Origin: Terriglobia bacterium
Lineage (GTDB): Bacteria; Acidobacteriota; Terriglobia; Bryobacterales; Bryobacteraceae
Length of the DNA: 64,000 nt
NCBI GenBank assembly: GCA_021324185.1
Contig: JAJPJN010000129.1
Coordinates: forward strand, 1 to 64,000
Direction of reading: 5' to 3'
Shown here: piece after piece, positions 42,383 to 60,346 of the stretch
Layout: every line of letters starts with the position of its first letter
Numbering within the stretch: position 1 is the stretch's first letter
The notes under the pieces: generated by a model
Seen by the model: only the letters and a program-made list of their open reading frames with translations
Database searches by the model: none
Told to the model about the DNA's origin: nothing
Made by a program: the position numbers and the translations under genes

Positions 42383-42504
42383 CCGAACACGATAACAGAA
42401 ATGAAAAAAAAGATATCTGGCCTGCTTTCAACCGGTTAACTGCAGTTCGGATGGGATCTTGAACGCGGCTGGCACTAACCTGATTGCAGATTGAGTTTGC
42501 CGCA

Positions 42505-43890
42505 ATGATCCAGATTGATCAAGAACACGCTGAGTACAAACGACAACGGCGCACGTTACAGACGTATCGCGACTTATACGCCGGCGGTTACGAATTTAAA
42601 GAACGTGCCGCACATTATCTGCTTCGAAGGCAGAAAGAGCCCTTAGATGTGTATGCTGAGCGGCTCTCGCGAGTCTTCTACGAAAATTACGTCGGATCGA
42701 TTATCGACTGGTACGGATCGACCTTATTCCGGCGGGAACCGAGCCTTTATTTCGAGGAGGGTTTAGAGCCAGCCCGTCAATTTCTTTCACAGTTTGCCGA
42801 TGATTGTGATCGACGCGGGACAACTTTGTCCGATTTCTTCCGACATGCGTTTATCGACGCATTGGTTGCAGGAAAAACTCACATTCTGATCGACTTTCCG
42901 CGCGTTTTCAAGACTATTATGAATCGCGCCGAAGAAGACGCTATCGGCGTTTCACGAGCTTATTTGATTCGTTTCGGAGCAGAAGATCTTATCAACTGGT
43001 CGACTGATGAGCGCGGCGATTACGAGTGGGTTGTATTTCGCCAAAAGTCGCGGCAACAACTTAGCATCGAAGCCGAGTCTGTTGTTGAAGAGACCTGGTG
43101 GCGTTATTACGACAAAAGCGAATATCGGTTTTACAGGCGGATCGAAGGAAAGGATAAGCCGGGCAGCATTGAGCTTGTGGCGCAAGGTCCCCATGCGCTG
43201 ACTTTGCAGCATCGCGTACCCGTATTCACTCTGGAATTGTCGGAAGGCTTACGGCTGATGAGCAAAGCGGCCCACCTACAGCTCGAACACTTTAATAAGT
43301 CCAATTCCCTGGGCTGGGCGATCACTATGGGCCTGTTTGCCATGCCGGTCATTTATTCCGACCGCGAATGGGACCAAATTGTCGGAGATAGCTATTACAT
43401 CCAGCTAGGCCCGACCGACCGCTTCGGCTGGACTGAACCTGATGGCAAGGTCTATGAAATCGCCGCGGCTAACCTTGAAACTTTGAAAGAGGAGATCTAC
43501 AGGGTCTGCTACTTGTCCCAAGCCTCCGGCGAAATGACCGGCGGCCGTGCGCAATCTGCGGCGAGCAAACAAATGGATTTTACGATCACGCAGGAAGTGC
43601 TGCGAGCATATGGGGCAGTTGTGAAAAGTTGCATTCGAAAAGTGATAGCCGCTATTACGGAGGCGCGCCAGGACAAGGCGGCTGTAAACGTAACCGGCTT
43701 GGATGAAGTGGACATCAGCGATTTCACAACGGAGTTGAACAACGCGGCGAGCCTACTAAGCCTTGGAATCGAATCGCCGACTTTGAAGCGAGAGATCTGT
43801 CAGAGACTCGCTCTTAAGTACCTGAATGACGCGCGGCAGGAGACAAAAGACCAGATCGCGCGCGAAATTAATGCACAGTATCTGAATTGA
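42505..43890 (+). CDS. Phage portal protein (DUF4055-like)
   Basis: 461 residues from the ATG at 42505; a TTG at 42484 is possible. YRDLYAGGYEFKERAAHYLLRRQKEPLDVYAERLSRVFYENYVGSIIDWYGSTLFRREPSL, then LIRFGAEDLINWSTD, VPVFTLELSEGLRLMSKAAHLQLEHFNKSNSLGWAIT, and near the C-terminus GEMTGGRAQSAASKQMDFTITQEVLRAYG, are the blocks of DUF4055-type portal proteins. The portal forms the dodecameric DNA channel at the capsid vertex. It is the first gene of the cluster; the terminase genes that normally precede a portal gene are absent and the flanking upstream gene is a chromosomal peptidase. Confidence 0.8.
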   Translation: MIQIDQEHAEYKRQRRTLQTYRDLYAGGYEFKERAAHYLLRRQKEPLDVYAERLSRVFYENYVGSIIDWYGSTLFRREPSLYFEEGLEPARQFLSQFADDCDRRGTTLSDFFRHAFIDALVAGKTHILIDFPRVFKTIMNRAEEDAIGVSRAYLIRFGAEDLINWSTDERGDYEWVVFRQKSRQQLSIEAESVVEETWWRYYDKSEYRFYRRIEGKDKPGSIELVAQGPHALTLQHRVPVFTLELSEGLRLMSKAAHLQLEHFNKSNSLGWAITMGLFAMPVIYSDREWDQIVGDSYYIQLGPTDRFGWTEPDGKVYEIAAANLETLKEEIYRVCYLSQASGEMTGGRAQSAASKQMDFTITQEVLRAYGAVVKSCIRKVIAAITEARQDKAAVNVTGLDEVDISDFTTELNNAASLLSLGIESPTLKREICQRLALKYLNDARQETKDQIAREINAQYLN

Positions 43891-43903
43891 GGAGAAAAGT
43901 GTG

Positions 43904-44506
43904 ATGGATCAAAACGAAATAAACAATCACTCTGCCGGCGAGGAGCAAACAGCGGCGGCCAGCAGCGAGCATATCCGTGACCTGGTTCGACAAGCTATTG
44001 ATGAGTTCGTCCGGGTACAGCAAAAAAAAGCGGAGCCTGCATACAAAGCTGAGCTATACGAAGAACGCAAGCGCAGAGAAAACTTGGAAAGCCGGTTGAA
44101 TCAACTGGTTGAGGAAAACCGCCGGGCAAAAGCGCTCGCGGAGGAAGCCGACCGCAGCTCTCAGATTAGAAGCGAATTACAGCGCCTGGGCGTGGCTAAG
44201 CTTGACTTAGCATATAAGGCCGTTAAGGACGACATCATGCGAACAGATGATGGGCGTTTACAACCCAGAGGACAGGATGGAAAGACACTTCAGGAATATC
44301 TTGCAGGTTTCGTACAAGAAAATCCTGAACTGCTTCCCGCCCGCATCGCCGGTGGAAGCGGCGCTAACGCAGCCGCGAAAAGCGCTCCCGCAGCCCCGGC
44401 CTCGTTTAGTCTCGATGCGATTTTACCGGGAATGAGGAAAGAGGATCTCGATCGAGTGCGCGAAGAGATTTCCCGCCTGGCATCACAGGCATTACGGGGC
44501 TCCTGA
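43904..44506 (+). CDS. Phage scaffolding-like protein
   Basis: 200 residues from the ATG at 43904 (a GTG one codon earlier is possible), with GGAGAAAAG upstream. The sequence is highly charged and coiled coil: LYEERKRRENLESRLNQLVEENRRAKALAEEADRSSQIRSELQRLGV, with an Ala/Pro-rich linker and a short C-terminal helix (PGMRKEDLDRVREEISRLASQAL). Position between portal and major capsid, length and composition fit an assembly scaffold. No protease that would remove it is encoded nearby. Role inferred mainly from context. Confidence 0.7.
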   Translation: MDQNEINNHSAGEEQTAAASSEHIRDLVRQAIDEFVRVQQKKAEPAYKAELYEERKRRENLESRLNQLVEENRRAKALAEEADRSSQIRSELQRLGVAKLDLAYKAVKDDIMRTDDGRLQPRGQDGKTLQEYLAGFVQENPELLPARIAGGSGANAAAKSAPAAPASFSLDAILPGMRKEDLDRVREEISRLASQALRGS

Positions 44507-44588
44507 TTCAGGAAGCTCTGTAATTTGCAGTTGACGCACACAAACCAAACGGCGGCCGAGATGCCGCCAATCTTACTTTAGGAGACTT

Positions 44589-45500
44589 ATGTCAATCATT
44601 ACATCTGCCAATTTGGCAAATGCGATTGTCAAGCTGGTGGCTGCGGATGCATTGCCGGCTCTGGTGGGCAATCTGGTCATGGGCAATCTGGTGAACCGGG
44701 ATTATGAACCCGTGCTGGCGCATGCCGGCGACACCGTCAATGTGCCTATTCCACCGGTTCTTGTTGCCAACAACATCGCAGAAGGCGGGACGGTTTCCCC
44801 ACAAAATCCCAGCTTGGGCAATGCCCAGATTGTGCTGAATACACATGCGGAAGCCACGTTTCAGATTCCCGATGTCACGAAAGCTCTTGCTTTTCCGGAG
44901 TTGCTCAAGGCCTACATGCAGCCGGCTGTCATCGCAATCGCACAACGCGTAGAGCACGATTTGCTGAACTTGTATAGCCAGTTCACGGCCAATGCGCCTG
45001 TGGGCGCGGCTGGCACTGCCATCACCGAAGCGACTATCGACGCGGCGGAAACAGCTCTATTTTCAGCGATGGTTCCGGCGAGCATGCCGAAGTATCTGGT
45101 TGTTGATTCGAGCACTTACTCGCAAATCCGCCAGATTCCTCGCTTCAGCGAGTATTACTCGGCTGGCGAGGCCGGGCTGAAGACGTTAATAGAAGGAAAC
45201 GTCGGGAAGATAAAAGACTTCTTCATCTTCCGTTCGCAGTTTGTCCCGGTTACGGGCGGCGCCACCCCGAACAATCACAGCTTGGCATTCACTCGCGATG
45301 CGATGGGCTTAGTTGTGCGCCGGCTACCTCAGCCGCTCCCTGGTACAGGGGCCGTGGCTGAATATGCCGAAATGGGTAATTTTGGCTTGCGTGTGGTGAT
45401 GAGCTATCAACCGAATACGTTGGCACAGCAGTTTACCGTGGACGTGCTGTACGGTTGCGGAGTTCTTCGCAATAACTTTGCCGTGCAGGTAAACACGTAG
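44589..45500 (+). CDS. Major capsid protein (P22 coat-protein-like, HK97 fold)
   Basis: 303 residues with a strong ribosome-binding site (TTTAGGAGA). The N-terminal LVGNLVMGNLVNRDYEPVLAHAGDTVNVPIPPVLVANNIAEGGTVSPQNPSLGNAQIVLNTHAEATFQIPDVTKAL, the mid-region YLVVDSSTYSQIRQIPRFSEYY and the C-terminal LRVVMSYQPNTLAQQFTVDVLYGCGVLRNNFAV match the P22-type coat family pattern. It would form the icosahedral shell. The frame is intact. A rho-independent terminator lies 31 bases after the stop. Confidence 0.85.
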   Translation: MSIITSANLANAIVKLVAADALPALVGNLVMGNLVNRDYEPVLAHAGDTVNVPIPPVLVANNIAEGGTVSPQNPSLGNAQIVLNTHAEATFQIPDVTKALAFPELLKAYMQPAVIAIAQRVEHDLLNLYSQFTANAPVGAAGTAITEATIDAAETALFSAMVPASMPKYLVVDSSTYSQIRQIPRFSEYYSAGEAGLKTLIEGNVGKIKDFFIFRSQFVPVTGGATPNNHSLAFTRDAMGLVVRRLPQPLPGTGAVAEYAEMGNFGLRVVMSYQPNTLAQQFTVDVLYGCGVLRNNFAVQVNT

Positions 45501-45531
45501 TAACCAATATCAACCGTTTACTTTCAATGAT

Positions 45532-45558
45532 GGAGCCGTCTTGCGCGGCTCCTTTTTT
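45532..45558 (+). terminator. Rho-independent terminator after the capsid gene
   Basis: GGAGCCG (45532-45538) pairs perfectly with CGGCTCC (45546-45552) around a seven-base loop, followed by TTTTTT. It lies inside the cluster between the capsid gene and the next gene (start 45576), so readthrough must supply the tail genes. Confidence 0.85.
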
Positions 45559-45575
45559 ATAGGGGATTAGATTTC

Positions 45576-45923
45576 ATGGACCTAAAACAGTACTTTAAGA
45601 AGATTCACGAACTTGAGGCGACTCTGGCGGATGAGTATCCTGTCGTGGTCAGCCTTCCAACGGCCGACGGCGGCAAAGCTGGCGTGCTCTCCGAGGTTTC
45701 GAAAGCCGTTGCGGCGAAAATGATCATCGACGGCCGTGCGGTGCTCGCCACTGCTGCGGAAAAGCAGAAGCACCTGGAACAGCAGGCAGCGGCCAAAAAA
45801 CACGCAGAGCAGGTTGAGCTATCGCGGCGCGTACAGGTCGCCATTATTACCGACCCCAATCTGAATATCGGGGCGACACCAAAGGGCAGTAACGCGCCCG
45901 CCGGCCTAAATAAGCAGGAATAG
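45576..45923 (+). CDS. Small phage head protein, unknown
   Basis: 115 residues, acidic-basic and helical: LKQYFKKIHELEATLADEYPVVVSLPTADGGKAGVLSEVSKAVAAKMIIDGRAVLATAAEKQKHLEQQAAAKKHAEQVELSRRVQVAII. GGGGATTAG precedes the ATG. It sits directly after the capsid terminator, where head-completion or decoration proteins are often encoded, but I recognise no family. Five bases separate it from the next gene. Confidence 0.6.
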   Translation: MDLKQYFKKIHELEATLADEYPVVVSLPTADGGKAGVLSEVSKAVAAKMIIDGRAVLATAAEKQKHLEQQAAAKKHAEQVELSRRVQVAIITDPNLNIGATPKGSNAPAGLNKQE

Positions 45924-45928
45924 CGCTC

Positions 45929-46711
45929 ATGGCTCTATTCACTGATCCGAACATCGTGACGCTCGACGATCTGTTGCAGTTCGAGAGTTCACTTATACAA
46001 GTCTCTACGACGCACGGTATCGACGTTGAGACCAAAATCACACTCGCGGTGAATTCGATAGGCGATCGCTTGATGCTTTGGCTGTTGAATTCTGGCGGTT
46101 CCGATCCACAGTTCCTGCAAAGGCGGACTCTTGGGCTGAAAACCGTCGTGGTAATCCCAACACTTTATCGGTGGATCTGTTTCGATTCTCTGTCACGGTT
46201 TTTTGCGGAAGCGTATAACGTGCAGCTCAACACCAGATTTCAGGGCAAGTGGACCGAGTACCAGCAGGAAGCACAGAATGCAGCGGACATGGTCTTTATG
46301 TCAGGAATAGGAATCGTCTACAACCCGCTGCCCAGGCCACCGATCCCCACGCTGATTGTCGGTGCGGGAGCGATAACGGCTCAGTCGATATTCGTGCAGA
46401 CAACTTGGGTCGATAGCAAAGGCAATGAAAGCGCGCCTAGCGGGGTAACTGGAGAGCTTCTACCCGCTTTTTCCAGTGTCACCATACCACCACCGATCAG
46501 CGGGCTTGTCCAGCCGCCTTCGGGAGCCGTGGGCTGGAATATCTACGGAAGCTCGACTGATGCCGGCTTTGGACTGCAAAACTCCACGCCGATTCCGCTG
46601 GATTCGAGCTGGCAGCTATCTAGTGCGGGTGTCGTTGCCGGCGCTGCTCCGTCGGGCGGACAGCAACCGAATTTTTACATCGCGCTGACCAGGCGCATTC
46701 AGCGAGGCTAA
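45929..46711 (+). CDS. Phage head-tail connector/neck-like protein with Ig/Fn3-like C-terminal domain
   Basis: 260 residues. The N-terminal ~130 residues are helical (DLLQFESSLIQVSTTHGIDVETKITLAVNSIGDRLMLWLL, RWICFDSLSRFFAEAYNVQLNTRFQGKWTEYQQEAQNAADMVFM), a pattern like head-tail adaptors. The C-terminal half is an Fn3-like beta domain (FVQTTWVDSKGNESAPSGV, GWNIYGSSTDAGFGLQNSTPIPLDSSWQL) of the type also found in the large tip protein of this cluster. Function is assigned by position only. It lies three bases before the next gene. Confidence 0.55.
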   Translation: MALFTDPNIVTLDDLLQFESSLIQVSTTHGIDVETKITLAVNSIGDRLMLWLLNSGGSDPQFLQRRTLGLKTVVVIPTLYRWICFDSLSRFFAEAYNVQLNTRFQGKWTEYQQEAQNAADMVFMSGIGIVYNPLPRPPIPTLIVGAGAITAQSIFVQTTWVDSKGNESAPSGVTGELLPAFSSVTIPPPISGLVQPPSGAVGWNIYGSSTDAGFGLQNSTPIPLDSSWQLSSAGVVAGAAPSGGQQPNFYIALTRRIQRG

Positions 46712-46713
46712 CT

Positions 46714-47214
46714 ATGGCACTTCCCATGACGATTTTGGCCAGCCAGAAAATGGCGAGCCTGCTTACAAACAACAATGCTCTTTATCAGCAGATCGTCTCC
46801 ATTTCTGCCGCGGCCAACATGGCGGTTCCGCCCATAGCGGCAAGTCAGGTCGTCTTGAGCTCGGCTAGCCCCGATATCGGGGATAAAAATATCCAGCTCA
46901 CATACCCAAGAGTGTGCTTATACAGTACATCCGTAAAAAATACTCATATTGAGAAGTTCAAGTCACTATCGGGAACCGTTTCCGTTATTACCGATATTTG
47001 GGCAAGCGGAAATCTGGTCAGCGATACCGATCAGTGGATCCACTTTTATGTGGAGGCTGTGACGGACATCTATCGACGGAATGTTGGAAATCTCAATGAC
47101 GGATTTTATTTTTCGGGCGCTTATGAAGTTCAGTTTCAGCCGCCCAAGCAGGGGGGCATTGGCTTTTCACAATCCGCCAAAATTACCTCTCTTCTCAACG
47201 TAAGTCAAAGCTAA
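46714..47214 (+). CDS. Tail completion/neck-type phage protein, putative
   Basis: 166 residues. KMASLLTNNNALYQQIVSISAAANMAVPPIAASQVVLSS is followed by a beta-rich part (NIQLTYPRVCLYSTSVKNTHIEKFKSLSGTVSVITDIWASG and DQWIHFYVEAVTDIYRRN). A small protein of this size between adaptor and tail-tube genes is usually a neck or tail-terminator protein. I do not recognise a named family, so the role is inferred from gene order. Confidence 0.55.
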   Translation: MALPMTILASQKMASLLTNNNALYQQIVSISAAANMAVPPIAASQVVLSSASPDIGDKNIQLTYPRVCLYSTSVKNTHIEKFKSLSGTVSVITDIWASGNLVSDTDQWIHFYVEAVTDIYRRNVGNLNDGFYFSGAYEVQFQPPKQGGIGFSQSAKITSLLNVSQS

Positions 47215-47225
47215 GAGGCATCAAC

Positions 47226-48392
47226 ATGGCATACATATCTTCGAATCAAAATCGTTTCTACGCCGCTATCGAAGCTGATTACGCTCAAGCCGCTCCCATC
47301 ACGGCGGCGAATCGTTACCCGGCTGTTCGTTTACAGGCTCATCAAATCATTGAGCGCGGCCATCGCCGCGATAAGACCGGGTCTCGGACATTTCTAGGAA
47401 GCCCTACCAGCGCCCGTCGCAAATCTGCATTTGAAACGCAGACCTATCTAACGTCATGGGCGGGCACGGGCCAACCAGGCTACGGCGCGTTGGTGCAAGG
47501 TGCGATGGGATCCGCTCCTCAGATCGCCACCGGCCTGATCGTAGCCTCAGCACCGAATGGGGCCTCATTGGAGACCACAGCACCGCATGGACTTTCCGTA
47601 GGCACAGCGATTTCCTACCAGAGCGAAATACGCTTCGTCGCATCTGTGCCCAGCCCGACTGCCTTGACGCTAAATGCGCCATTGTCCAACGTTCCTCTAG
47701 CTAACTCACAATTAGCGCCGACTATAACTTATAAGCTCGCGACCACATTGCCGAGCGTCACACTCTATGATTACTGGGACCCCGTTACGGCAGTAAGTCG
47801 AATTGTGACCGGAGCAGCCGTCGATATTTTTGGTGTCTCAGTAAACGGCGATTTCCACGAGATGCAATTTAGCGGTCCCGCAGGCAATTTGCTGGATTCG
47901 AGCAGCTTTGAGGCGGGCACGGCCGGCCTTAGCAGCTACCCGCAAGAACCGGCCCTCACGACGTTTGATTACACCGTTGTGCCAGGAAATCTCGGGGAAG
48001 TCTGGCTCGGAACTGGGCCAACGCAATTTCTTACTTTAACAGAAGCTACTATAGCCCTCAAGAACAATATCGATCTGCGCAGCTTCGAATTCGGAAGTGC
48101 GTATCCCCTGTCCATGACGGCCGGCCCGCGGCAGGTAAGCTCCAGCTTCACGGTTCTCGTTCAGGATGATGCTCAAACATCGGCTCTTTACGCCGCGGCC
48201 AAGCAAAGAACGCCCATCAGCGCGATGCTTCAACTTGGCCAGCAGCAGGGTCAACTGATGGGTATTTATCTGTCCTCGGTAACACCGGAAATTCCGGCGT
48301 ACGACGACAGCGCAACGCGGCTGCAGTGGCAATTCAAAAATAATCTGGCCCAAGGTGTCGTCGATGATGAACTCTACATTGCATTCGCCTGA
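47226..48392 (+). CDS. Major tail tube-like protein
   Basis: 388 residues, beta-rich, without a signal peptide. YPAVRLQAHQIIERGHRRDKTGSRTFLGSPTSARRKSAFETQTYLTSWAG at the N-terminus and NIDLRSFEFGSAYPLSMTAGPRQVSSSFTVLVQDDAQTSALYAAAKQRTPISAMLQLGQQQGQLMGIYLSSVTPEI at the C-terminus resemble tail-tube subunits with a beta barrel and inserted Ig-like domain. It precedes the frameshifted tail chaperone pair, where siphoviruses encode the tube protein. The gene's end overlaps the chaperone start. Confidence 0.65.
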   Translation: MAYISSNQNRFYAAIEADYAQAAPITAANRYPAVRLQAHQIIERGHRRDKTGSRTFLGSPTSARRKSAFETQTYLTSWAGTGQPGYGALVQGAMGSAPQIATGLIVASAPNGASLETTAPHGLSVGTAISYQSEIRFVASVPSPTALTLNAPLSNVPLANSQLAPTITYKLATTLPSVTLYDYWDPVTAVSRIVTGAAVDIFGVSVNGDFHEMQFSGPAGNLLDSSSFEAGTAGLSSYPQEPALTTFDYTVVPGNLGEVWLGTGPTQFLTLTEATIALKNNIDLRSFEFGSAYPLSMTAGPRQVSSSFTVLVQDDAQTSALYAAAKQRTPISAMLQLGQQQGQLMGIYLSSVTPEIPAYDDSATRLQWQFKNNLAQGVVDDELYIAFA

Positions 48393-48762
48393 GCTGCACG
48401 AATACTCCAGCCTGGTTTGGCACAACAGCGAGCGACGGCCAGGTGTTCGGTTTGCGACGCGACAAATGTCCCTGGCGCAAAGGATTGCGCTTACCAAACA
48501 GGTTCGTGACCTTATGTTACGCCATGACTTTCTAAAGGGGGGTGATACTGCTGATCAACTGCAGGCCACCCTCGGCGATCTATTAAGCCGCCGACTTTAT
48601 GTCGAATGGGGACTTGCGCATATAGAAGGCCTTTCGATCGACGGAACCAACGCCACGGTTGAGCTGCTGATAGAACACGGGCCGGAAGACTTAACGCAGG
48701 AGATCGCAAACGCAATTATTTCTGATCTGCATCTGACGGAAGAAGAAAGAAAAAACTTCTAA
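48364..48762 (+). CDS. Tail assembly chaperone, short (gpG-like) product
   Basis: 132 residues in the zero frame. The start is 48364 or 48367 (ATGATG, with AAGG upstream), inside the tail tube gene. SPELHEYSSLVWHNSERRPGVRFATRQMSLAQRIALTKQVRDLMLRHDFLKGG and VEWGLAHIEGLSIDGTNATVELLIEHGPEDLTQEIANAIISDLHLTEEE form a mostly helical acidic protein like tail assembly chaperones. It ends AGA AAA AAC TTC TAA, where the slippery heptamer A AAA AAC sits two codons before the stop. Position between tube and tape-measure genes fits the lambda G/GT arrangement. Confidence 0.8.
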   Translation: MMNSTLHSPELHEYSSLVWHNSERRPGVRFATRQMSLAQRIALTKQVRDLMLRHDFLKGGDTADQLQATLGDLLSRRLYVEWGLAHIEGLSIDGTNATVELLIEHGPEDLTQEIANAIISDLHLTEEERKNF

Positions 48763-48809
48763 TCGCATTCCATTTTCAACATTCTTCGCCAGCCGCGTGG
48801 AATTGCGAT
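48750..48809 (+). promoter_or_regulatory. Programmed -1 ribosomal frameshift site
   Basis: Slippery heptamer A AAA AAC at 48750-48756 in the correct phase (zero-frame codons AAA 48751, AAC 48754). After five spacer bases comes a stem: ATCGCATTCCA (48762-48772) pairs with TGGAATTGCGAT (48798-48809) with a single bulged base. Slippage by -1 opens a frame of 108 codons with no stop until 49080. Heptamer, spacing and stem match the classical stimulator design. Confidence 0.88.
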
Positions 48810-49082
48810 GCCTGCCGGTCCAGCGGCCTGGTGACACTTAGAAATTGCGCATGGTATCCGTCAACGGAATCTAGCGCTAAAGTCGTTTGGGCACGCTCCG
48901 GCATATTGACCACCAATTGCCCGAAGTCTTTGATAACCGCGCAGAGCATGGCATGGTTGGAAGAATTCTTCGCTTGGAAGGCGCTGGGTGGTGGCATTGA
49001 TTTTAAGATGCCGGCAAAGTCCGTTGATGCACTGATCGTCTTGAACCAAGCGTGGTTAATGGAGAATCAACATGAGCAATAG
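48757..49082 (+). CDS. Frameshift extension of the tail assembly chaperone (gpGT-like)
   Basis: Read in the -1 frame from 48756 this region continues without a stop for 108 codons to the TAG at 49080-49082, giving a 239-residue fusion with the upstream chaperone. It contains two cysteine motifs (WNCDACRSSG and RNCAWYP) and WLEEFFAWKALGGGIDFKMPAKSVDALIVLNQAWLMEN near the end. It lacks a plausible start and ribosome-binding site of its own (the first GTG is at 48831), so expression by frameshift is the best explanation. The next gene starts within its last codons. Confidence 0.82.
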
Positions 49083-49740
49083 TAAGAATCCGCTGTCTGT
49101 TTTAATCGATCAACTTGTTGGCCCTAAGTCGTCGGCGCTCGCCTTTTCCCGGTTTGTTCAGCCGTTGATCGCTGCGAACTCAAGCACGTCAAAATCAACC
49201 TCTGCTTCTGAGCCGCTGGGCTCCTTAGGGTTGAAGGCTTCGTCAGCGCTATTCGCGCCGGCCGTCAAAAGTATTGGCTTTGGAAAGCCGTCCAGCAACA
49301 CCACACCAGCATCATCCTCTACCGGCAGCACTTGGCAAGGCTTACTCTCCCAGACGGCTTCCGGAGGACTCGCCAGTGCACTAACCGGCGGACTCAGCTC
49401 CATTGCAGGCCTAGGCGGTTTGATATCTGACATCGGAAAATTATTCGGCGGCGGCTCATCCAAACCGGCCCCTCCGCCTCTCACCCTCTTTTCACTTCCC
49501 ACTTCCATTCAGCAGACAGCCTATTTGGCCTCGAACGGCGCACACGTGTACGCCGGTGATTCCGCCGATCAACCTCCCAAGGCTGGTCCTACGTTACCGA
49601 TATACACAACAACCGGAATGGCAAATACCGCCGGCCATAATCCCGTATCGGCGGCCACCGATAGCGCCGCCATTGCGCAAGCTGTGAAAAACGCGCTGCT
49701 TACCTCCAATACGCTGGGCGATGTTATCGCGGAGTTATAG
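49072..49740 (+). CDS. Short tape-measure-like tail protein, putative
   Basis: 222 residues, Ser/Ala/Gly-rich. The centre (LLSQTASGGLASALTGGLSSIAGLGGLISDIGKLFGGG) is a hydrophobic glycine-rich stretch like those in tape measure proteins; the C-terminus IAQAVKNALLTSNTLGDVIAEL is helical. It occupies the tape-measure position directly after the frameshifted chaperone. Typical phage tape measures are several times longer; at ~1.5 angstrom per residue this would specify a tail of only ~33 nm. The RcGTA tape measure is, from memory, of similar length. Function inferred from position and composition. Confidence 0.55.
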   Translation: MSNSKNPLSVLIDQLVGPKSSALAFSRFVQPLIAANSSTSKSTSASEPLGSLGLKASSALFAPAVKSIGFGKPSSNTTPASSSTGSTWQGLLSQTASGGLASALTGGLSSIAGLGGLISDIGKLFGGGSSKPAPPPLTLFSLPTSIQQTAYLASNGAHVYAGDSADQPPKAGPTLPIYTTTGMANTAGHNPVSAATDSAAIAQAVKNALLTSNTLGDVIAEL

Positions 49741-50100
49741 ATGAACACATTTCCAACCATCACCTCAAATGCCGTAACGCAATATCCGGCCGCTATTCAA
49801 TATTCGCAAGGAGTTCAGGTTATTGAATACTTGGACGGCGCAGACCAGCGTTATTTGCTGCAGCCAAGAATGCTGCGGCTGTGGCGAATCAATCTGGCCC
49901 AACTGAACGAGGACGAAGTACAGCAGATCGAAACGTTTTTTGCTGGTCAGCAGGGCACATACTCACCGTTTGCCTTCCCTGATCCCTTTACAGGAACAGT
50001 CGTGGGAAACTGCCGTCTGGCCGCTTCGACTTTTCTCACTAACTATGTGGGTGTCGATAACGCCGCCACTTTTTGCTGGGTGATTGAAACCAATGGCTAA
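49741..50100 (+). CDS. Distal-tail-like protein (DUF2460-like), copy 1
   Basis: 119 residues starting directly after the preceding stop. RYLLQPRMLRLWRINLAQLNEDEVQQIETFFAGQQGTYSPFAFPDPFTG has the pattern W-x-L-xx-L-x(10)-FF-x(3)-GxYxxFxFxDP typical of DUF2460/minor tail proteins that form the distal tail ring. The next gene product has the same pattern. Family assignment is by pattern, not full-length alignment. Confidence 0.6.
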   Translation: MNTFPTITSNAVTQYPAAIQYSQGVQVIEYLDGADQRYLLQPRMLRLWRINLAQLNEDEVQQIETFFAGQQGTYSPFAFPDPFTGTVVGNCRLAASTFLTNYVGVDNAATFCWVIETNG

Positions 50101-50890
50101 TTTATTTTTCCCGCAACTCGCTACGGGAGCAATGGCACAGTATCCCATCAAAAAAACTGCTGTGACTAGAACGATCACCAACCTTATGGCTGACGGCAGC
50201 ATCATCGTGCAAGCAGACACGCCAGCCGCGAAAATGATTTGGGAAATGGCGTTTACCGATTTATCGCCAGCGGACGCGACCGCTTTGCAGGCGCATTTTC
50301 AAGCCTGCATCGGCCCATACCATGCGTTCACTTTTATTGATCCCACAGATAATATGCTGGCAGACAGCACAGATCTGACGAGCATTAGTTGGGTCAGATC
50401 TGCTCTCTTGAATGTCAGCGACGGAGCGTCGGACCCTAACGGCGGCTCCGGCGCCTTTCTTTTGACCAATACAAGTTCAGCTCCACAGCAGATATCTCAA
50501 CAGTTGGCAGTGCCCGCGAATTACCAGTATTGCTTTTCGCTCTATGCTCTGAGTGCCGTACCCATGACGTTGGATCTGGTGCGCCAGGGGGCTCTCGCAA
50601 GTGCCACCAACACACTTTCTGTCGGACCGGCATGGACTCGAATAATCTCAACCGGCAGGTTGAACGATCCAGGAACGCAATTTACTGTAGCGATTAATCT
50701 GTCACCCGGCCAGCAGGTCACCGTTTTCGGCTTGCAGTTGGAGCCTCAGCTTCAGCCTTCACGCTATCGCCCTACTGTGGGACGCAGCGGCGTTTACGCC
50801 AATGCGCACTGGGCATCGGACACCCTTTCGATGGTCTCCCAAGCGCCCAACCTGTTCTCTACATCCTTTGCAATTCAGGCCAACGTCTAA
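50093..50890 (+). CDS. Distal-tail-like protein (DUF2460-like), copy 2 with C-terminal jelly-roll-like domain
   Basis: 265 residues from the ATG at 50093, overlapping the previous stop (an ATG at 50084 is also possible). Residues ~40-85 (MIWEMAFTDLSPADATALQAHFQACIGPYHAFTFIDPTDN) match the previous protein's pattern. The C-terminal ~170 residues (VRSALLNVSDGASDPNGGSGAFLLTNTSSAPQQISQQLAVPANYQYCFSLYALS ... TVFGLQLEPQLQPSRYRPT) resemble a carbohydrate-binding jelly-roll as seen on phage tail fibre and baseplate proteins. It may add a receptor-binding arm to the distal tail. Confidence 0.6.
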   Translation: MANLFFPQLATGAMAQYPIKKTAVTRTITNLMADGSIIVQADTPAAKMIWEMAFTDLSPADATALQAHFQACIGPYHAFTFIDPTDNMLADSTDLTSISWVRSALLNVSDGASDPNGGSGAFLLTNTSSAPQQISQQLAVPANYQYCFSLYALSAVPMTLDLVRQGALASATNTLSVGPAWTRIISTGRLNDPGTQFTVAINLSPGQQVTVFGLQLEPQLQPSRYRPTVGRSGVYANAHWASDTLSMVSQAPNLFSTSFAIQANV

Positions 50891-50897
50891 GAAACTC

Positions 50898-53800
50898 ATG
50901 GCAATAATCAATACAGTCAAGCAGCTTCCTGAAACAGATACTCCACTGCTGTTCTTTCAGTGCGTGATGCCTTCGGGAGATACCGAGTACTGGTGCACGC
51001 ACGCTATTAACTTCAATGGCTCAGCATACACGGCGCGAATATTGAAACACAACCTTTTCGATCTGCAACTTTCAGCCGACGATGCAATGGACGGAATCAC
51101 GCAATTGTCCATTACTTTGGCCAACGCAGATTCTGCCTTGTCGCAACTGAACTCCGCTATAGGCTTTAAAGGTTCCCAACTCACCGTTTTCTTCGCTTTT
51201 GCGGACCTACCTACGCTGACCATCACAACTGAAAGTACTGTATTGTTTCAAGGCGTAGCAGGTGACCCGGACGAAATCACCGAAGATGCCTTTACGCTAA
51301 GCTTCATCAATAAGCTTAGTCTTCAGCGCATTCCTACGCCGGAAGTGCGCGTGCAGCGCTCGTGTCCTTGGGCCTTTCCCTCGGGACCCGATGAACGAGC
51401 CGAGGCAGTAAACGGCGGTAGTGACGGACCGTACTCTACTTTTTATCGCTGCGGGTATTCAGCGGATCAACCGGGCGGCACTGGCGATTTGAATGGCGGA
51501 CAGCCGTATACCTCGTGCGACAAAACGCGAAGCGCATGCCAGGCTCGCGGCATGTTTAACAAAGACAACAGCGGCAATATAACTCAGCGGTTCGGCGGCT
51601 TCGAATTTATCCCCTCAGCGATCATGGTGCGAACTTCTGGCGCCAAAACGACTCATTTATCCCCACTACTGGATAATACGGCTCTTTTCAACGATGCTGT
51701 GCCTCTCGTTTACGGAACTGGTTGGCTGAGAGCTCCCGTAATCTTTTCACGTAACGATGGGAATCTCACCCATATGGAAGTTCTGGGGGGCTTAGGGCCG
51801 ATTCAAGGGGTTCTTAAGGTAGTCGTGAATGATGTCGAGATCCCCCACGCCGTACAAGGCCAAGATATGACCGCGACGGGATGGTATAACTTCGTCACGA
51901 CGGGTAACCGAACCGGCAACTTCAATCTGGATTTTACTGATTCAAATGGTAACCCGCTGGGCGATCCATATGGAAGCATGTGCGTGCTCTCCGTTGTCGT
52001 TCCCAATCGGGTCAGCAGCGGAAGATCGTTAGCAAACGTCGAAGTTCTTATACAAGGTCAACAGCTCGATTCCTATAATCCGGATGGCACTTTTTCCGCC
52101 CGTGGATATACTAACAATCCTGCATGGGTCATTCTGGACTTACTTAGAAGATCCGGCTGGTCACCTTCCGAACTCAATTTACCCGCATTTGCTGAAGCCG
52201 CCGCGTTTTGCCAGGAGCTGATCAGTACGACAGATTTGAATGGAAACCCGATTCAGGTACCGAGATACGAGTGCAATCTCATTCTGACGAAGCGGCAAAG
52301 TGTTGCAACAGTGGTTCGTGGCATACGCGTCGCTGCCAGCCTGATGCTGCGTTACGGACCCACGGGACTATTGGAACTTCTGCCGGAAACTACGCTGGCC
52401 GCCCAGCAACCCGCTTTACCGGATGGAAGCAATAGCACGGAAACGTTGAATGGCGGTTGGCCCGCATACGAATTCAGCGATGCTTCTGGGCCTTTTTCCG
52501 GCATTATGCGGGATTCAAAAGGCGCTTCCACTATCCGGCTCATCTCGCGCAGCATAACGGAAACCTCCAACCGCCTGAGTGTCGAATTTCAGGACGAGAA
52601 CAATGAATATCAGCAGGACAGCTTATCGTTGGTCGACGGCAATGACTACGCTCTGATCGGCTATGAAATCAGCAGTCAATCTACCGCGATGGGGATTGCT
52701 AATTTTAGCCAGGCGACTCGCGTTTTGCTGCGCCAGTTAGATAAGCTGACCAAAGGAAACCTGTTTGTTCAGTTCCAGACCAGCTTTCGTGCGCTGAAAA
52801 TCAGACCTGGTGATCTGATCACACTGACATATCTCAAGGAGGGATTCACCCGTACTGTTTTTCGTGTCACGAAGCTTTCGCCCGCCGTGAATTTTCAGAC
52901 GGTGCTGATCACGGCGCAGATTCATAACGATAATTGGTACAGCGATAATCCGGCAGTTCTCGGAGGCGCGGGCCGGCAGCCGGCCTCGCAATTGCAGATG
53001 CCGCGACCATTAATCGGTTTATCCCCTCATCTAGGACCGTCTGGAGCTTTTGAGTTCTTCGATTTTCAGGTCGAGGAAAATATTCAGGCCCAAAGCGACG
53101 GTAGCGCCACTGACACTCTCACGGTCAGCTTCTCCGAGCCTGTCCAACCTGCTAAGAGTGCCCTTGCTATCCCGTTGTTAAGCCTTTCGCCGCAATATCA
53201 GCTTACGGGCGGCTCGCTACCGGCAAACAGTACTTACTACTACGCAGTGAGTGCGCTCGATGACCTTGGAAATGAGGGCCCTCTATCGTTCACCGTTCCA
53301 GCAACAACACCCTCCACCTCAAACACAAATAGCATCGTAATTGCCAATCTGAGCTTTCCGTCTGGCAGTGCGGCGTTCAATGTTTACCGCGGAACAACAC
53401 CGCAAATGCTCTACCGCATCGCGACCAGCGTCGCATTATCCAGCACTTTTCTGGATTCCGGCTTACCACCCCTCCCGTTCGGACCTCCTGACCCCAGCTT
53501 CGATCATGCAAACTTCTACTATAGGTACGAAAATGCGGGCCCATTTCCTGTTACTTCAGCGACTGCCACATCGATCACGTGCTCCGATCTAGGCGCGACA
53601 AGTCTTGCCTACGGAGGCATGGCGGTTCGAATCATTGAGGGAACCGGCCGCGGCCAGGAACGAACCATTTCGACCAACGACGAAACAACACTGACCATAA
53701 GCTCGGCGTGGTCTATCTTGCCCGATTTGACCAGCCGCTTCGTCATTACGGAAGCATCCTGGCGGTTTGCGGGCGTTACTTCTGCAAGCCCTGTGCAGTT

Positions 53801-54839
53801 TGAAATTCCTTATCGCACCGGCAACGTTATTCAGATCTCCGGCCGTGCGGCTAATGTGAATAACCTCGAAGGCACGCCCGATTTATGCCCCCTCACAAGA
53901 TTGGCGCTGGGACAAAACCAGGCAGATTTGGCAGTGCCTCCCGCACCTGCTTTTCAAGTCGATGTTCCAGGTGGCGGAGAAGTTGTGCTGACTCAAATAG
54001 GTTTTAACGATCAGAACAATATTTCTTCTATATCGAGTGGTACGCTTCAGATCTACACGTGGAATGAATTAGTAAACCCCGCCATTTATTCGCTTACCCT
54101 GCCGCTAAACACGGCTTCCAATACGGTCACCCTTAATGTGCTGCCTGGCATGCAGGTGGGAACCGTCATTCAGGTTGATGCGGAATTGATGAGTATTCAG
54201 TCAGTTGATCAACCAACAAACACCTATACGGTTGTTCGGGGTGCGCTCGGCTCTGCCGTGGTCGCGCACAACGCCGGCGCCTCGGTGTTGCACTTGACAA
54301 CCGCAGTCATTACGGTTCCTTTTGCCTCTCATTTTTTCGAAAATCGCGCGTCGGTCAACTATCTGCATACAGTCAGCCTGCCTGATATGCGCATATGTGC
54401 TGCAGAAATGTTCGCCAGCAATGCACTTGGCAACGGCGTGCCTACAGTCTACTGCTATACGGCTGATCCTGATGGCGGTCTGCGCACTCTTTCCGGAGGA
54501 CAATTTTCCCTTCAGGTCACAGGCGCATTGGCAACGCAGCAAAATGCCGCGCCACCTTTGATGATCGAGTCCTCGCATGCGGTACGCGATGTTCGAGCTA
54601 CGGTAAATCAGGCGCCGGTTGGATACGATCTGGGGATAGAAGTTTTGCAGGATGGAAACAATTATTGTTCTTTGACCATTCCATCCGGCAGTACAAATTC
54701 GAATCTCATCGATGGCGTCTCTCTGCCGCCGTTAATCGACGGTTCCTCTATTTCCATTAATCTAACCCTCAATCTCATACCCAATCCGCCGGCATCATTG
54801 ATTCCGGGCAAGGATTTGGCTGTTACCATTCGCCTGTAG
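50898..54839 (+). CDS. Large tail hub/tip protein, DUF2163-like N-terminus with gpJ-like core
   Basis: 1,313 residues from the ATG at 50898, eight bases after the previous stop; longer frames overlap that gene. The N-terminal ~270 residues resemble DUF2163/BR0599 hub proteins (WCTHAINFNGSAYTARILKHNLFDLQLSADDAMDGITQLSITLAN) and include four spaced cysteines (RSCPW, YRCGY, TSCDK, SACQAR) before RFGGFEFIPS. These probably ligate an Fe-S cluster as in lambda gpL. The middle (YTNNPAWVILDLLRRSGWSPSELNLPAFAEAAAFCQE) is gpJ-type tail-tip sequence, and the C-terminal ~500 residues hold Fn3-like and beta domains (YQLTGGSLPANSTYYYAVSALDDLGNEGP). It joins functions separate in RcGTA and lambda. Confidence 0.72.
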   Translation: MAIINTVKQLPETDTPLLFFQCVMPSGDTEYWCTHAINFNGSAYTARILKHNLFDLQLSADDAMDGITQLSITLANADSALSQLNSAIGFKGSQLTVFFAFADLPTLTITTESTVLFQGVAGDPDEITEDAFTLSFINKLSLQRIPTPEVRVQRSCPWAFPSGPDERAEAVNGGSDGPYSTFYRCGYSADQPGGTGDLNGGQPYTSCDKTRSACQARGMFNKDNSGNITQRFGGFEFIPSAIMVRTSGAKTTHLSPLLDNTALFNDAVPLVYGTGWLRAPVIFSRNDGNLTHMEVLGGLGPIQGVLKVVVNDVEIPHAVQGQDMTATGWYNFVTTGNRTGNFNLDFTDSNGNPLGDPYGSMCVLSVVVPNRVSSGRSLANVEVLIQGQQLDSYNPDGTFSARGYTNNPAWVILDLLRRSGWSPSELNLPAFAEAAAFCQELISTTDLNGNPIQVPRYECNLILTKRQSVATVVRGIRVAASLMLRYGPTGLLELLPETTLAAQQPALPDGSNSTETLNGGWPAYEFSDASGPFSGIMRDSKGASTIRLISRSITETSNRLSVEFQDENNEYQQDSLSLVDGNDYALIGYEISSQSTAMGIANFSQATRVLLRQLDKLTKGNLFVQFQTSFRALKIRPGDLITLTYLKEGFTRTVFRVTKLSPAVNFQTVLITAQIHNDNWYSDNPAVLGGAGRQPASQLQMPRPLIGLSPHLGPSGAFEFFDFQVEENIQAQSDGSATDTLTVSFSEPVQPAKSALAIPLLSLSPQYQLTGGSLPANSTYYYAVSALDDLGNEGPLSFTVPATTPSTSNTNSIVIANLSFPSGSAAFNVYRGTTPQMLYRIATSVALSSTFLDSGLPPLPFGPPDPSFDHANFYYRYENAGPFPVTSATATSITCSDLGATSLAYGGMAVRIIEGTGRGQERTISTNDETTLTISSAWSILPDLTSRFVITEASWRFAGVTSASPVQFEIPYRTGNVIQISGRAANVNNLEGTPDLCPLTRLALGQNQADLAVPPAPAFQVDVPGGGEVVLTQIGFNDQNNISSISSGTLQIYTWNELVNPAIYSLTLPLNTASNTVTLNVLPGMQVGTVIQVDAELMSIQSVDQPTNTYTVVRGALGSAVVAHNAGASVLHLTTAVITVPFASHFFENRASVNYLHTVSLPDMRICAAEMFASNALGNGVPTVYCYTADPDGGLRTLSGGQFSLQVTGALATQQNAAPPLMIESSHAVRDVRATVNQAPVGYDLGIEVLQDGNNYCSLTIPSGSTNSNLIDGVSLPPLIDGSSISINLTLNLIPNPPASLIPGKDLAVTIRL

Positions 54840-54842
54840 AAA

Positions 54843-57695
54843 ATGCCCGAACAGCTCTATAAACTAAGCCCGGACCGGGACTTACAAAGCTACTTTTTCA
54901 TGCCATCTGCCATAGCTGCCATGAGCCAGGCAGGTCCCGCCGGATTCACATTATCCGGCAGATGGCGCCAGCAGTTCGATTGGGCAGTAGTCGAATGGAA
55001 TCGCGACAACACATTCGAGCATCCTTCGCTTCGCTATTTACCGGATGGTGACTTGAGTGGCCTGAAGCTGACTTATATCGAGCAGCGGCGGAATTGTATC
55101 CCCCTAGAGTCGAACCTTTATCCTGTCGTGGACTGGAACGATCTTCGCATTTGGGCTACCCCCGAAGGCGGTACAGAACAGTTGTATCAGGTGTTTTTTG
55201 TTAACCCGTACGGAAACGCGCCCAACGGCATAACTACCGCTCCGATTGGCAGTTACGTTCCGGCCTCCGCCACCATGCTGTTGACTAGCTCGCCGGGAAC
55301 AGGAAAGCGCGCAGGTGTCGCCGTCCTTGAGCAGCATTACTACTATATTGTGGCTGGTGGCGACACCTTGAGCGACATCGCCGCCGGTATAGCTCAGAAC
55401 ATCAATGATTTCGGCAGCTCGACTTTTTCTGCCTACAGCAACGGCGCGTCCGTGGTCATTACATTGAATCCTGCCAATTGGGAGAGTGCAAACCACAGCG
55501 CCGTCAATCCTCTGTTAGGGGCCAACGGTAACCGGCTCACCGTTTACGGATTTGCAGAAGATGGTGCGCAGATCTGGCAACAGCCGGCCGTTTTTTTCAA
55601 CGGCGGACAGTTCCCCGCGGCATATCAAATCACAATCGATTTTGGCAACTTGATTGGCAGGAATGTCAACACTGGACAATTCGTGCCGGTTCCAACAAGT
55701 GACATCCGAAAAATGCGGTGGACCTGGTCAGCCGATTTTCAACCCTCTTCGTTTATGCAAACAGACTTCCAAGTACAGGTAACAAATTGGACCGTTACGG
55801 GACAAAATCGAATTTATTCAGTGGCCGGCCCCGGGAGCAGAAGAATCGAAGACAGCGGCTCCGGCGTTACCTACTCAGGAACCTGGAGTACCGAGCAAGG
55901 AAACTATTCAGGCAGCAGCATCGCCTTTACACAAACCCCCAACGACGCCTGCACTATTATTTACCAGGAGACAAGCCAACATCAGTTATACCTTGGCACC
56001 CGGCTTTTAAATTCAGGCCAAAAGTCTGGCGCCAATATTTCGATAATAGTCGACGGTCAGCCTGTACCGCAGTTCACCACCTTGTTTCTGCCTGGAGAAG
56101 ACCTCCTGGTCCGCTTACCACTCGGCACATATGGGCCAGGCACTCATACCGTTACTTTGCAGCACCAGGGGCCGGCTGATTACTACATTTACTTCGACTT
56201 TTTGGAAATCGCCCATCCCACAACCAGCTTGCCTGAATTTGAGCCAAACACGTTCTCGTTAGCAACGGACTGGGACACCTATCATTCACAATCTTTACCC
56301 GCCGAACGAACGGCATGGCTGATTCAAAAACTGGGCTTTACAGGCCGGGTAAACCATTATGTTGGCGCTCTCTGGTTCTACGAAATTGTCCGCCCCGGAA
56401 CCCGGTACGCTTCCCTGACAGTTACGTTCGTGCTCGTGCAAGGAGTGAACCCGAGTTCGACAATAACCCTGAATATCACGCCGCCCAACTCCGGCACAAC
56501 GTCAATTCAACACTTAGTACTTTTCGATGACACGCCAGCGACCTTGGCCCAAGCATTCGCCGGCCTGATCAACCTCGGAAGCAATGCGATTTGGGCGAGT
56601 GCATCGGGAGATCAACTCACGCTAACCGCACGCGCCATGGGGCCGGACGGCGACAATATTCTCGTACAATTGGATTCGAGCACCGCTGGATACACCCTTC
56701 AGGGCGGCTCAGAGCTAACCGGCGGTGTTTACGGCGCACCCTATACCAACATCGATCCAAACGGGACTCTGGCCCTGACCGCCGATTATTGGCGAACGGA
56801 TCTCTCAGCAGCTCCCAGCATCAATCGTGCAGCACGCGATTGGCATCTGGCATACTTTCAGGCACTGAAGAGCTACGGCATTGATGTGGTTGTTGCGTTT
56901 AGTACCGAGCTCATGAATGGCGATCCGGATCCGGCGGCAGGCATCGTTCAGCAGTATCCAGATGCTGCTCCGGTTGTCTTAACTACTCCTTCCATCCAGA
57001 CGAATTTTTCACCTACTTCCATTGCATATTGGACGAAGAATTATCTGGAAATGGCCTCGCTTCAAAACTCCGCGGGCCTGCAGCCCTATCTGCAGTTCGG
57101 CGAAGTGCAGTGGTGGTATTTTCCGAATGGCGCAGGAATGCCGTTTTACGATGCCTATACGCAGCAGCAATTCCAAGCTAAGTACGGCGTGCCCATGCAG
57201 ACGATCACTTCGAATACTGCGGACCCCAGCGCCTACCCGAACGAGATGTCGTTCCTCGCGGCCATGATTGGAAACTACACCGCCTCCATCCGCAATACGG
57301 TATTAGCCCAGTATCCGGCGTGCCGGTTTGAAGTACTATATCCGACGGATACGAACAATTTCAGCATCACGCAGATGGTGAACTTTCCCGCAACCGATTG
57401 GACGCCGGCGAATCTCCATGTTTTGAAAACTGAGAGTTTCACATTCACGGGATCGAATAACTTGGACCTCAGCGCCTATTCAATCGGCGTGAGCGCCTCG
57501 AAAGGATTCCCCCTGAATCAACGAAGTCACTTAGTAGGTATAGGTAACGCCTGGAACGCATGGCCCAAAGAGGTAGATATCGCACAGGCGCAAGGACTTG
57601 ATTCAATCGTCTTATTTGCCTTAGATCAGTATTGTCTAATCGGCTACCCTCCACCTCCATTCTTAAAGACCGCGCGTGCATTGCGCCAGGCTTGA
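54843..57695 (+). CDS. Large tail protein with C-terminal TIM-barrel, glycosidase-like domain
   Basis: 950 residues, start three bases after the hub gene stop. The N-terminal ~600 residues are beta-rich with structural repeats (YLPDGDLSGLKLTYIEQRRN, LSDIAAGIAQNIND, VTYSGTWSTEQGNYSGSSIAFTQTPNDACTIIY). From ~640 the sequence looks like a (beta/alpha)8 hydrolase: SINRAARDWHLAYFQALKSYGIDVVVAFSTEL, LQPYLQFGEVQWWYFPNG with a candidate catalytic Glu near 754, MPFYDAYTQQQFQAKYG, and EVDIAQAQGLDSIVLFALDQYC. It recalls GH42-like barrels and the TIM barrel of the RcGTA megatron, and may belong to the so-called non-contractile tail sheath family (from memory, unverified). Wall or glycan processing at the tail tip is inferred. 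Confidence 0.65.
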   Translation: MPEQLYKLSPDRDLQSYFFMPSAIAAMSQAGPAGFTLSGRWRQQFDWAVVEWNRDNTFEHPSLRYLPDGDLSGLKLTYIEQRRNCIPLESNLYPVVDWNDLRIWATPEGGTEQLYQVFFVNPYGNAPNGITTAPIGSYVPASATMLLTSSPGTGKRAGVAVLEQHYYYIVAGGDTLSDIAAGIAQNINDFGSSTFSAYSNGASVVITLNPANWESANHSAVNPLLGANGNRLTVYGFAEDGAQIWQQPAVFFNGGQFPAAYQITIDFGNLIGRNVNTGQFVPVPTSDIRKMRWTWSADFQPSSFMQTDFQVQVTNWTVTGQNRIYSVAGPGSRRIEDSGSGVTYSGTWSTEQGNYSGSSIAFTQTPNDACTIIYQETSQHQLYLGTRLLNSGQKSGANISIIVDGQPVPQFTTLFLPGEDLLVRLPLGTYGPGTHTVTLQHQGPADYYIYFDFLEIAHPTTSLPEFEPNTFSLATDWDTYHSQSLPAERTAWLIQKLGFTGRVNHYVGALWFYEIVRPGTRYASLTVTFVLVQGVNPSSTITLNITPPNSGTTSIQHLVLFDDTPATLAQAFAGLINLGSNAIWASASGDQLTLTARAMGPDGDNILVQLDSSTAGYTLQGGSELTGGVYGAPYTNIDPNGTLALTADYWRTDLSAAPSINRAARDWHLAYFQALKSYGIDVVVAFSTELMNGDPDPAAGIVQQYPDAAPVVLTTPSIQTNFSPTSIAYWTKNYLEMASLQNSAGLQPYLQFGEVQWWYFPNGAGMPFYDAYTQQQFQAKYGVPMQTITSNTADPSAYPNEMSFLAAMIGNYTASIRNTVLAQYPACRFEVLYPTDTNNFSITQMVNFPATDWTPANLHVLKTESFTFTGSNNLDLSAYSIGVSASKGFPLNQRSHLVGIGNAWNAWPKEVDIAQAQGLDSIVLFALDQYCLIGYPPPPFLKTARALRQA

Positions 57696-59167: not shown

Positions 59168-60346
59168 ATGCGCATCGAAAATATTCAAAACGCTCTTCGC
59201 CTGGCTGAATTAGACGGCTGGCTTTTCTTTGATCATCATCGACGCGACCCGCTCGCATATCGCATTCTCGGGCTGAGTAACCGGATCGAAGCCACACGCC
59301 GCTGGTATTACTTTGTGCCAGCGAATCAGGAGCCTCGTAAGCTGGTGCATCGCATCGAAAGTGAGTCGCTCGATGAACTTCCCGGCTCCAAGGAACAATA
59401 TTCCAGTTGGCCTGATCAACAACAGAAACTGTGCAACCTGCTTCACGGCTGCCGTCGCATCGCAATGCAATATTCGCCTGATTGTGCAATTCCCTACGTC
59501 TCACTTGTAGACGCCGGGACCATTGAGCTGGTCAGAAAGTGTGGAGTTGAGATAGCTAGCTCAGCCGATCTCGTTCAGGAATTCGAAGCTCGCTGGACCG
59601 AAGAGCAATATCAATCTCATTTGCAGGCGGCCGAAAAAGTTGATGCGGTGCGCCGCGAAGCATTCCGGCTGATTAGCGAGTACATTCGCGATGAGAACGC
59701 ACTCACCGAATATGAGGTCCAGCAGTTTGTGGTGCGGCGATTCAAAGAGTCGGGGCTGTTTGCCACGCATGGTCCAATAGTGGCGCGCAACGAGAACGCC
59801 TCAGATCCACACTATGAGCCCAGCCGGAATCGAACCGCCCACATCCAACGCGGTGATCTGGTTCTCCTCGACATGTGGGCCAAACTAAACACGCCAGATG
59901 CCGTCTACTACGACATCACCTGGACCGGTTTTTGCGGCGCGACTGTTCCAGACCGGATTCAGAATGTCTTCACAGTTGTTCGCGACGCGCGCAAAAAAGC
60001 TTCGGAGTTCGTGATCCGGCAAATCTCTGCAGGATCGACGATTGCCGGCTACCAGGTGGACGATGTTGCCCGCGGCCATATCGAACGAAACGGCTTCGGT
60101 GCTTTTTTCTTTCACCGCACCGGCCACAGTATCGGAACGGAAGTGCATGGCACGGGAGCCAATATGGACAATATGGAGTCGCATGATACGCGCCGGATCA
60201 TCCCCCGCACCTGCTTTTCCATCGAGCCCGGCATTTACCTGCCCGATTTCGGTATCCGTTCGGAAGTGAATGTGTACGTCGGGGAGGGCTCTGCCTGCGT
60301 TACCGGCGAAGAACAAAGCGAGATGCTTAAGCTCGGATCCCGCTGA
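59168..60346 (+). CDS. M24-family metallopeptidase (Xaa-Pro aminopeptidase/dipeptidase type)
   Basis: 392 residues: a creatinase/prolidase-type N-domain (~1-150) and the pita-bread catalytic domain. Metal ligands appear in order: Asp in RGDLVLLDMWAKL, Asp in VYYDITWTGF, His in FHRTGHSIGTEVHG, Glu in CFSIEPGIYLP and Glu in GIRSEVNVYV. There is no signal peptide, so it acts in the cytoplasm, probably on proline-containing peptides. Co-transcribed with the symporter upstream. After it, ~110 bases hold nothing I can identify. Confidence 0.92.
   Translation: MRIENIQNALRLAELDGWLFFDHHRRDPLAYRILGLSNRIEATRRWYYFVPANQEPRKLVHRIESESLDELPGSKEQYSSWPDQQQKLCNLLHGCRRIAMQYSPDCAIPYVSLVDAGTIELVRKCGVEIASSADLVQEFEARWTEEQYQSHLQAAEKVDAVRREAFRLISEYIRDENALTEYEVQQFVVRRFKESGLFATHGPIVARNENASDPHYEPSRNRTAHIQRGDLVLLDMWAKLNTPDAVYYDITWTGFCGATVPDRIQNVFTVVRDARKKASEFVIRQISAGSTIAGYQVDDVARGHIERNGFGAFFFHRTGHSIGTEVHGTGANMDNMESHDTRRIIPRTCFSIEPGIYLPDFGIRSEVNVYVGEGSACVTGEEQSEMLKLGSR

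Follow-up and report, generated by a model that had tools for sequence, protein, structure and literature searches.

The gene transfer agent (GTA) RcGTA is encoded by a head-tail cluster of approximately 15 kb, with a short tape measure and with DUF2460-like and TIM-barrel tail proteins. GTAs have been defined as particles formed by proteins derived from tailed phages, mostly holding random host DNA and delivering it to other cells; their genes are fully endogenised, often at several loci, and mostly vertically inherited, co-diversifying with their hosts, while the heads are too small for the GTA's own genome (Kogay et al. 2022, PMC9662315). The formal classification comprises three independently domesticated groups (PMC9662315). 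Here we describe a series of phage genes for heads and tails in a 64,000-nucleotide stretch (the window) of contig JAJPJN010000129.1, from a draft genome (G000) of the Bryobacteraceae (Acidobacteriota subdivision 3). No earlier report of the locus was found in the open-access literature. We consider it probable that this is a domesticated locus for a tailed-phage-derived particle, most likely a GTA of a new lineage.

The locus resembles the clusters of the Rhodogtaviriformidae, the type I GTAs of Alphaproteobacteria represented by RcGTA, in its length of about 15 kb, its terminase-portal-capsid-tail order, its short tape measure, its DUF2460-like and TIM-barrel tail proteins, a head-spike-fibre domain, vertical inheritance across a large clade and the lack of integration genes. 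It differs in host phylum, in a P22-type capsid (PF11651) accompanied by a scaffold-like protein, and in the loss of the terminase from several lineages. The tail hub exhibited a weak similarity to the GTA megatron (E 0.0015) and scored 16.4 bits against model NF048004, far below the cut-off of 800, and profiles of the tube, capsid and large terminase (TerL) missed RcGTA structures, those of the capsid and TerL matching other phage structures. The preliminary description of this stretch had proposed a lineage distinct from known GTAs, and with respect to RcGTA these results bear it out. BaGTA and Brachyspira VSH-1/BhGTA are likewise independently domesticated tailed-phage particles of other bacterial lineages (PMC9662315); both were absent from the profile matches of the locus proteins, no gene-by-gene comparison having been made.

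Among autonomous phages, the capsid was 23-32% identical to those of phages with P22-type coats (Streptomyces Keanu, Gordonia Aleemily and Vibrio KF4) and the portal 28.7% identical to that of siphophage cta39025 (MW202476), and the TerL-portal order is shared. However, these phages mostly have genomes of 75-87 kb, cta39025 carries an integrase, replication genes and a Mu-like tail sheath, and no close phage relative was found. Across the greater part of the capsid or portal, named phages reached at most approximately 29% identity. Phage structural genes of acidobacterial genomes, including isolate KBS 96, were previously treated as prophages in clusters 140 and 153, mostly of Granulicella and Terriglobus (Eichorst et al. 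2018, PMC5900883), whereas the capsid of the present locus was not found in other families of the class within an even sample of the phylum. KBS 96, a member of the Bryobacteraceae, carries the locus, complete with TerL, within KB906767.1:2929452-2950360; its matches in that study may include it.

The unbroken, co-directional run of intact structural genes recognised in the preliminary description (Table 1) recurred collinearly in approximately 43 extracted regions of relatives; the locus is therefore not a chance assembly of open reading frames (ORFs). Where an entry was missing from these regions, the cause was mostly a contig end, a small gene that evolves fast, or the TIM-barrel gene, which is variable. 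As judged from the predicted products, the full set of phage-derived particle genes is present and intact. The capsid gene was detected in 197 of 237 genomes of the family, representing 70 of 76 genera and including all 16 congeners of the window's genome, nearly always as a single copy, at approximately 70-91% identity and with one internal stop among about 150 matches listed. A predicted programmed -1 frameshift in the tail assembly chaperone likewise proved to be a conserved feature: the slippery heptamer was present in 39 of 43 relatives, and in 36 it retained the exact arrangement, with the 0-frame stop within 7-10 nt. In G011 the chaperone genes were not recognisable.

A tree of the portal, capsid, tube and hub was compared with that of RpoB for 29 genomes. 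Eleven of 26 branches were common to both, against at most three in 2000 shuffles, and a Mantel r of 0.74 between locus and RpoB exceeded the values obtained on shuffling (at most 0.44). The capsid gene, better conserved than any other at the locus, yielded dN/dS ratios (omega) of 0.005-0.044, indicative of purifying selection; since dS was saturated in most gene pairs, omega is given only where YN00 converged, and codon-position differences are used otherwise. The G+C content of the locus was close to that of its flanks in 38 genomes. Vertical maintenance, as anticipated in the preliminary description, is thus supported, and low dN/dS was observed, with near-universal single-copy presence, conserved gene order and a largely RpoB-congruent tree, and these data support a locus that appears to have been domesticated and vertically inherited across the Bryobacteraceae.

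By its chromosomal setting the locus is endogenised. Ordinary chromosomal genes stand on both sides, as had been noted: an M28 peptidase and, beyond it, an aminotransferase on the left, and SSF, M24 and GAF-ANTAR genes on the right. The expectation of one chromosomal site across genomes held for the right flank, which is conserved within the genus (SSF, M24, GAF-ANTAR, hydrolase and ABC genes) and of which M24 lies directly after the locus or within approximately 3.3 kb of it in seven genomes of other genera (G030, G348, G481, G484, G504, G514 and G576), but not for the left, which varies even within the genus. The edges of the locus in the window share no repeat of 12 nt or more and no duplicated tRNA fragment. 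Integration at the neighbouring tRNA-Val gene (40732-40808) was considered and rejected on these grounds.

Repeated re-acquisition of a temperate phage lineage of very wide occurrence, or of remnants of it in decay, would account for the differing left flanks within the genus, some tree conflicts, the patchy occurrence in one sister family (f3, one of 18 genomes) and the listing of the locus as viral in IMG/VR. We regard this explanation as quite unlikely. ORF and profile analysis identified no integrase, repressor, replication genes or att sites at the window locus, in agreement with the preliminary description; in relatives, flanks were read for prophage genes on inspected contigs rather than scanned exhaustively. 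The single copy in nearly all genomes, the conserved right flank, the intact frames and the host-like G+C content also argue against it, as does the length of IMG/VR contigs, of which at least 597 carry relatives of the locus and none among about 160 listed exceeds 22.6 kb. It is suggested that these numerous soil contigs are cellular and not viral. The preliminary description would have been contradicted by adjacent terminase and lysis genes in relatives, patchy presence, att repeats and frameshifts; an adjacent terminase does exist, but lysis genes were not identified, presence within the family is not patchy, att repeats were not observed and frameshifts occur only rarely.

That terminase qualifies the initial view of a locus without packaging genes. 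In the window, neither a terminase nor a terminase remnant occurs upstream of the portal, so that the absence first reported stands for this genome. As a general property it does not: an orthologous TerL was found in 182 of the 237 family genomes, immediately preceding the portal in all cases inspected, with approximately 70% identity within the window's genus and 48-59% across genera and families. No internal stops occurred among the TerL matches listed, and the invariant columns include what we read as a Walker A motif, with its lysine, and as nuclease-domain acidic residues. A short ORF, a candidate small terminase, precedes TerL in 62 of 91 upstream stretches, none of them in the window's genus. 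Since no head gene is missing and most species have retained the terminase, the particle is most likely used to package DNA, which points to a GTA-like role.

Loci devoid of TerL were verified on contigs in at least 11 genomes (G000, G006, G012, G015, G477, G481, G484, G495, G542, G543 and G584), 28 capsid-positive genomes lacked a TerL match, and parsimony required at least five changes in TerL on the tree of 29 genomes. In G584 the small ORF is still in place together with a degenerate terminase remnant, which indicates that TerL was deleted there. The absence of a cis terminase from the window's genome is a loss common to a minority of lineages. The remaining genes stay constrained after it: between G006 and G012, a pair without TerL, capsid omega was 0.027 and differences amounted to 2% at second positions versus 45% at third positions. 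An assembly artefact could be suspected, given that the genome is a draft of 184 contigs and that the M28 neighbour has, in some congeners, relatives of only 40-53% identity, so that its junction with the portal is not seen elsewhere. This is very unlikely, as no orthologous TerL is present anywhere in a genome 97% complete, and independent genomes exhibit TerL-less junctions with other left flanks. Copies without TerL also resemble the helper-dependent state of a satellite-like element that obtains terminase and mobilisation from a helper phage, but the full structural set, the lack of mobility genes, the vertical pattern and the TerL of most copies render a satellite extremely improbable.

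Repeated loss under continued purifying selection on the structural genes is, with the remnant in G584, what would be expected of a domesticated particle without DNA, for instance a killing particle like a tailocin but with a head, or a device for adhesion or delivery, whose terminase is a dispensable relic in the course of being lost. We consider such a particle unlikely: intact TerL persists in most of the family, the capsid is the most conserved gene, and the portal and scaffold-like genes, needless for a tail-only weapon, are kept. A tailocin in the strict sense, a tail without head or packaging genes, does not describe a locus in which portal, scaffold-like gene and capsid are present and constrained. 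The loss of the terminase from lineages in which the other genes remain constrained makes possible a direct test of DNA transfer against another role.

Several points weigh against identification of the locus as a GTA. It is a candidate and not an established GTA, and no lysis or regulatory genes were identified for it. With 11 or more genomes lacking a cis terminase, packaging by such an enzyme is not universally required. A few well-supported deep branches conflict with the RpoB tree, which leaves a degree of horizontal exchange or of error in the trees, and purifying selection acts on phages too. Outside the family, four of 396 genomes in the even phylum sample had a capsid match, two of them remote relatives, which makes the locus a trait of the Bryobacteraceae with scattered copies in sister groups.

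The preliminary description had suggested a search for an unlinked large terminase, and three full-length genes were found in the window's genome, amid housekeeping genes and with no structural genes nearby. Identity is 61-71% among the three and approximately 33% with the TerL that relatives carry at the locus, and one follows a small-terminase (TerS) gene (phrog_309, E 1e-7). Similar orphan terminases were seen in G006, G009 and G012. A terminase elsewhere in the genome occurred in all ten verified TerL-less genomes that were at least 70% complete, versus an extra one in 88 of 169 TerL-bearing genomes, and in 21 of the 28 that had the capsid but no TerL match. As this association carries no phylogenetic correction, the genomes are not independent and the counts saturate at four per genome, it is only suggestive of packaging in trans by orphan terminases in the window's genome.

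In genus g246, short ATPase "terminases" were considered as the missing TerL and rejected, being paired with an RNase H-like ORF and present in multiple copies amid housekeeping genes; they hardly match the locus TerL. They form two-gene units (L318-L333 and L337), each combining a terminase ATPase (about 260 amino acids) with an RNase H-like ORF (about 215-240 amino acids), at one to seven copies per genome. Beside one split terminase unit (L323, 4000-6250), short peptides repeated in several frames (VAPLAGAWIET...) probably represent a CRISPR array. We advance only tentatively the broader possibility that in several lineages the cis terminase was repeatedly deleted and packaging is performed in trans, by solitary TerS-TerL pairs or split ATPase and nuclease modules at other chromosomal sites; particle genes and motor would then evolve without linkage, though both serve a single system of DNA exchange under host control.

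For the favoured interpretation, a GTA, we infer the following course of events. The particle encoded by the locus would have a head of P22 type, with scaffold-like and portal proteins, and a short, non-contractile tail tipped with DUF2460- and gpJ-like proteins and often a TIM-barrel protein. Host DNA would be packed into the heads by the neighbouring terminase in most species, frequently aided by a partner resembling a small terminase, and the short tail, binding to related cells, would deliver it. In the window's genome, particles would be filled by one of the three orphan terminases or be free of DNA. A GTA candidate conserved throughout a family of common soil bacteria would extend GTAs to the Acidobacteriota and, if it is one, provide a means by which genes pass between cells in soils and peat.

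Profile matches agreed with the initial labels for the portal, P22-type capsid, tube, gpJ-like hub and TIM-barrel protein. Two proteins labelled DUF2460-like did match that family, both below the Pfam cut-off of 30.4 bits (22.2 and 23.8 bits), and the label DUF2163 for the hub was not upheld, no DUF2163 match being found in profile searches of the locus proteins. The scaffold, connector and tape-measure labels reflect position and length; the scaffold-like protein had no match in a Pfam search, and the connector (g5) has in addition an AlphaFold model of mean pLDDT 90.8 with weak structural matches to phage connector or stabilisation proteins. The capsid model was of low confidence (mean pLDDT 34). 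The second DUF2460-like protein also matched the RcGTA head spike fibre structure 6tb9 (E 6e-4). The portal may start at TTG 42484 or ATG 42505.

Table 1. Features of the locus, its flanks and the unlinked terminases of the same genome
Feature	Position	Strand	Basis or remark
M28 peptidase, left neighbour	40847..42382	-	Left flank not conserved
Gap between M28 peptidase and portal	42383..42504	.	TerL site in relatives; no terminase remnant
Whole head-tail gene run	42,484-57,695	+	ORFs intact, co-directional, closely spaced
Portal protein	42484..43890	+	phrog_145, E 1e-46; orthologs in every region examined
Scaffold-like protein	43901..44506	+	Position; charged, helix-rich composition; orthologs 41-71% identical, same position
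Major capsid protein, P22-coat type, 303 aa	44589..45500	+	PF11651, E 1e-11; phrog_283, E 6e-40
Small conserved protein, 115 aa, no function assigned	45576..45923	+	Unrecognised in some relatives
Probable head-tail adaptor (connector, g5)	45929..46711	+	Helical N-terminal half, beta-sandwich-like C-terminal half
Probable tail terminator/completion protein	46714..47214	+	Position
Tail tube protein	47226..48392	+	phrog_290 (minor tail protein), E 4e-9; orthologs 33-63% identical
Tail assembly chaperone, upstream frame (G)	48355..48762	+	Ortholog comparison, frameshift-site analysis
Slippery heptamer A_AAA_AAC, predicted -1 frameshift	48750..48756	+	Just upstream of 0-frame stop 48760-48762
Tail assembly chaperone, -1 frame (T)	48726..49082	+	Predicted fusion by frameshift
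Short tape-measure candidate, 222 aa	49072..49740	+	Position; 171-251 aa where recognised in relatives
DUF2460-like distal tail protein	49741..50100	+	PF09343, 22 bits (below cut-off)
DUF2460-like protein with GTA head-spike-fibre domain	50084..50890	+	NF048003, E 2e-13, above cut-off
Tail hub/gpJ-like baseplate protein, 1316 aa	50889..54839	+	phrog_31 (J), E 6e-27; PF13550, E 6e-10
TIM-barrel tail protein, 950 aa	54843..57695	+	PF23845, E 3e-18; in some relatives only
SSF transporter	57739..59160	+	Right chromosomal anchor within genus
M24 peptidase	59168..60346	+	Right anchor common to several genera
GAF-ANTAR antiterminator-type regulator	60423-61211		Right flank; genus-conserved; possible regulator of the locus
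Orphan TerL, C158	L228 290-1774		
Orphan TerL, C40	L229 8940-10561		
Orphan TerL, C6	L230 483-1994		

The TIM-barrel gene was present in congeners G000, G001 and G010 and not found in G005, G008, G009, G011 and G014; G566 possesses a distant copy (27% identity) downstream, on the opposite strand. Two extra genes, of 242 and 601 amino acids, lie between the tape-measure and DUF2460 genes of G043 (L134/L135, oriented 21.7-25.2 kb). The hub gene of G484 is split, and a TAG codon lies within the capsid gene of G019. A record bearing the locus under the proteobacterial name "Nevskia soli" (L157, NZ_CAJCHS010000017.1) corresponds to G477 of the Bryobacteraceae, and is therefore probably a misnamed assembly.

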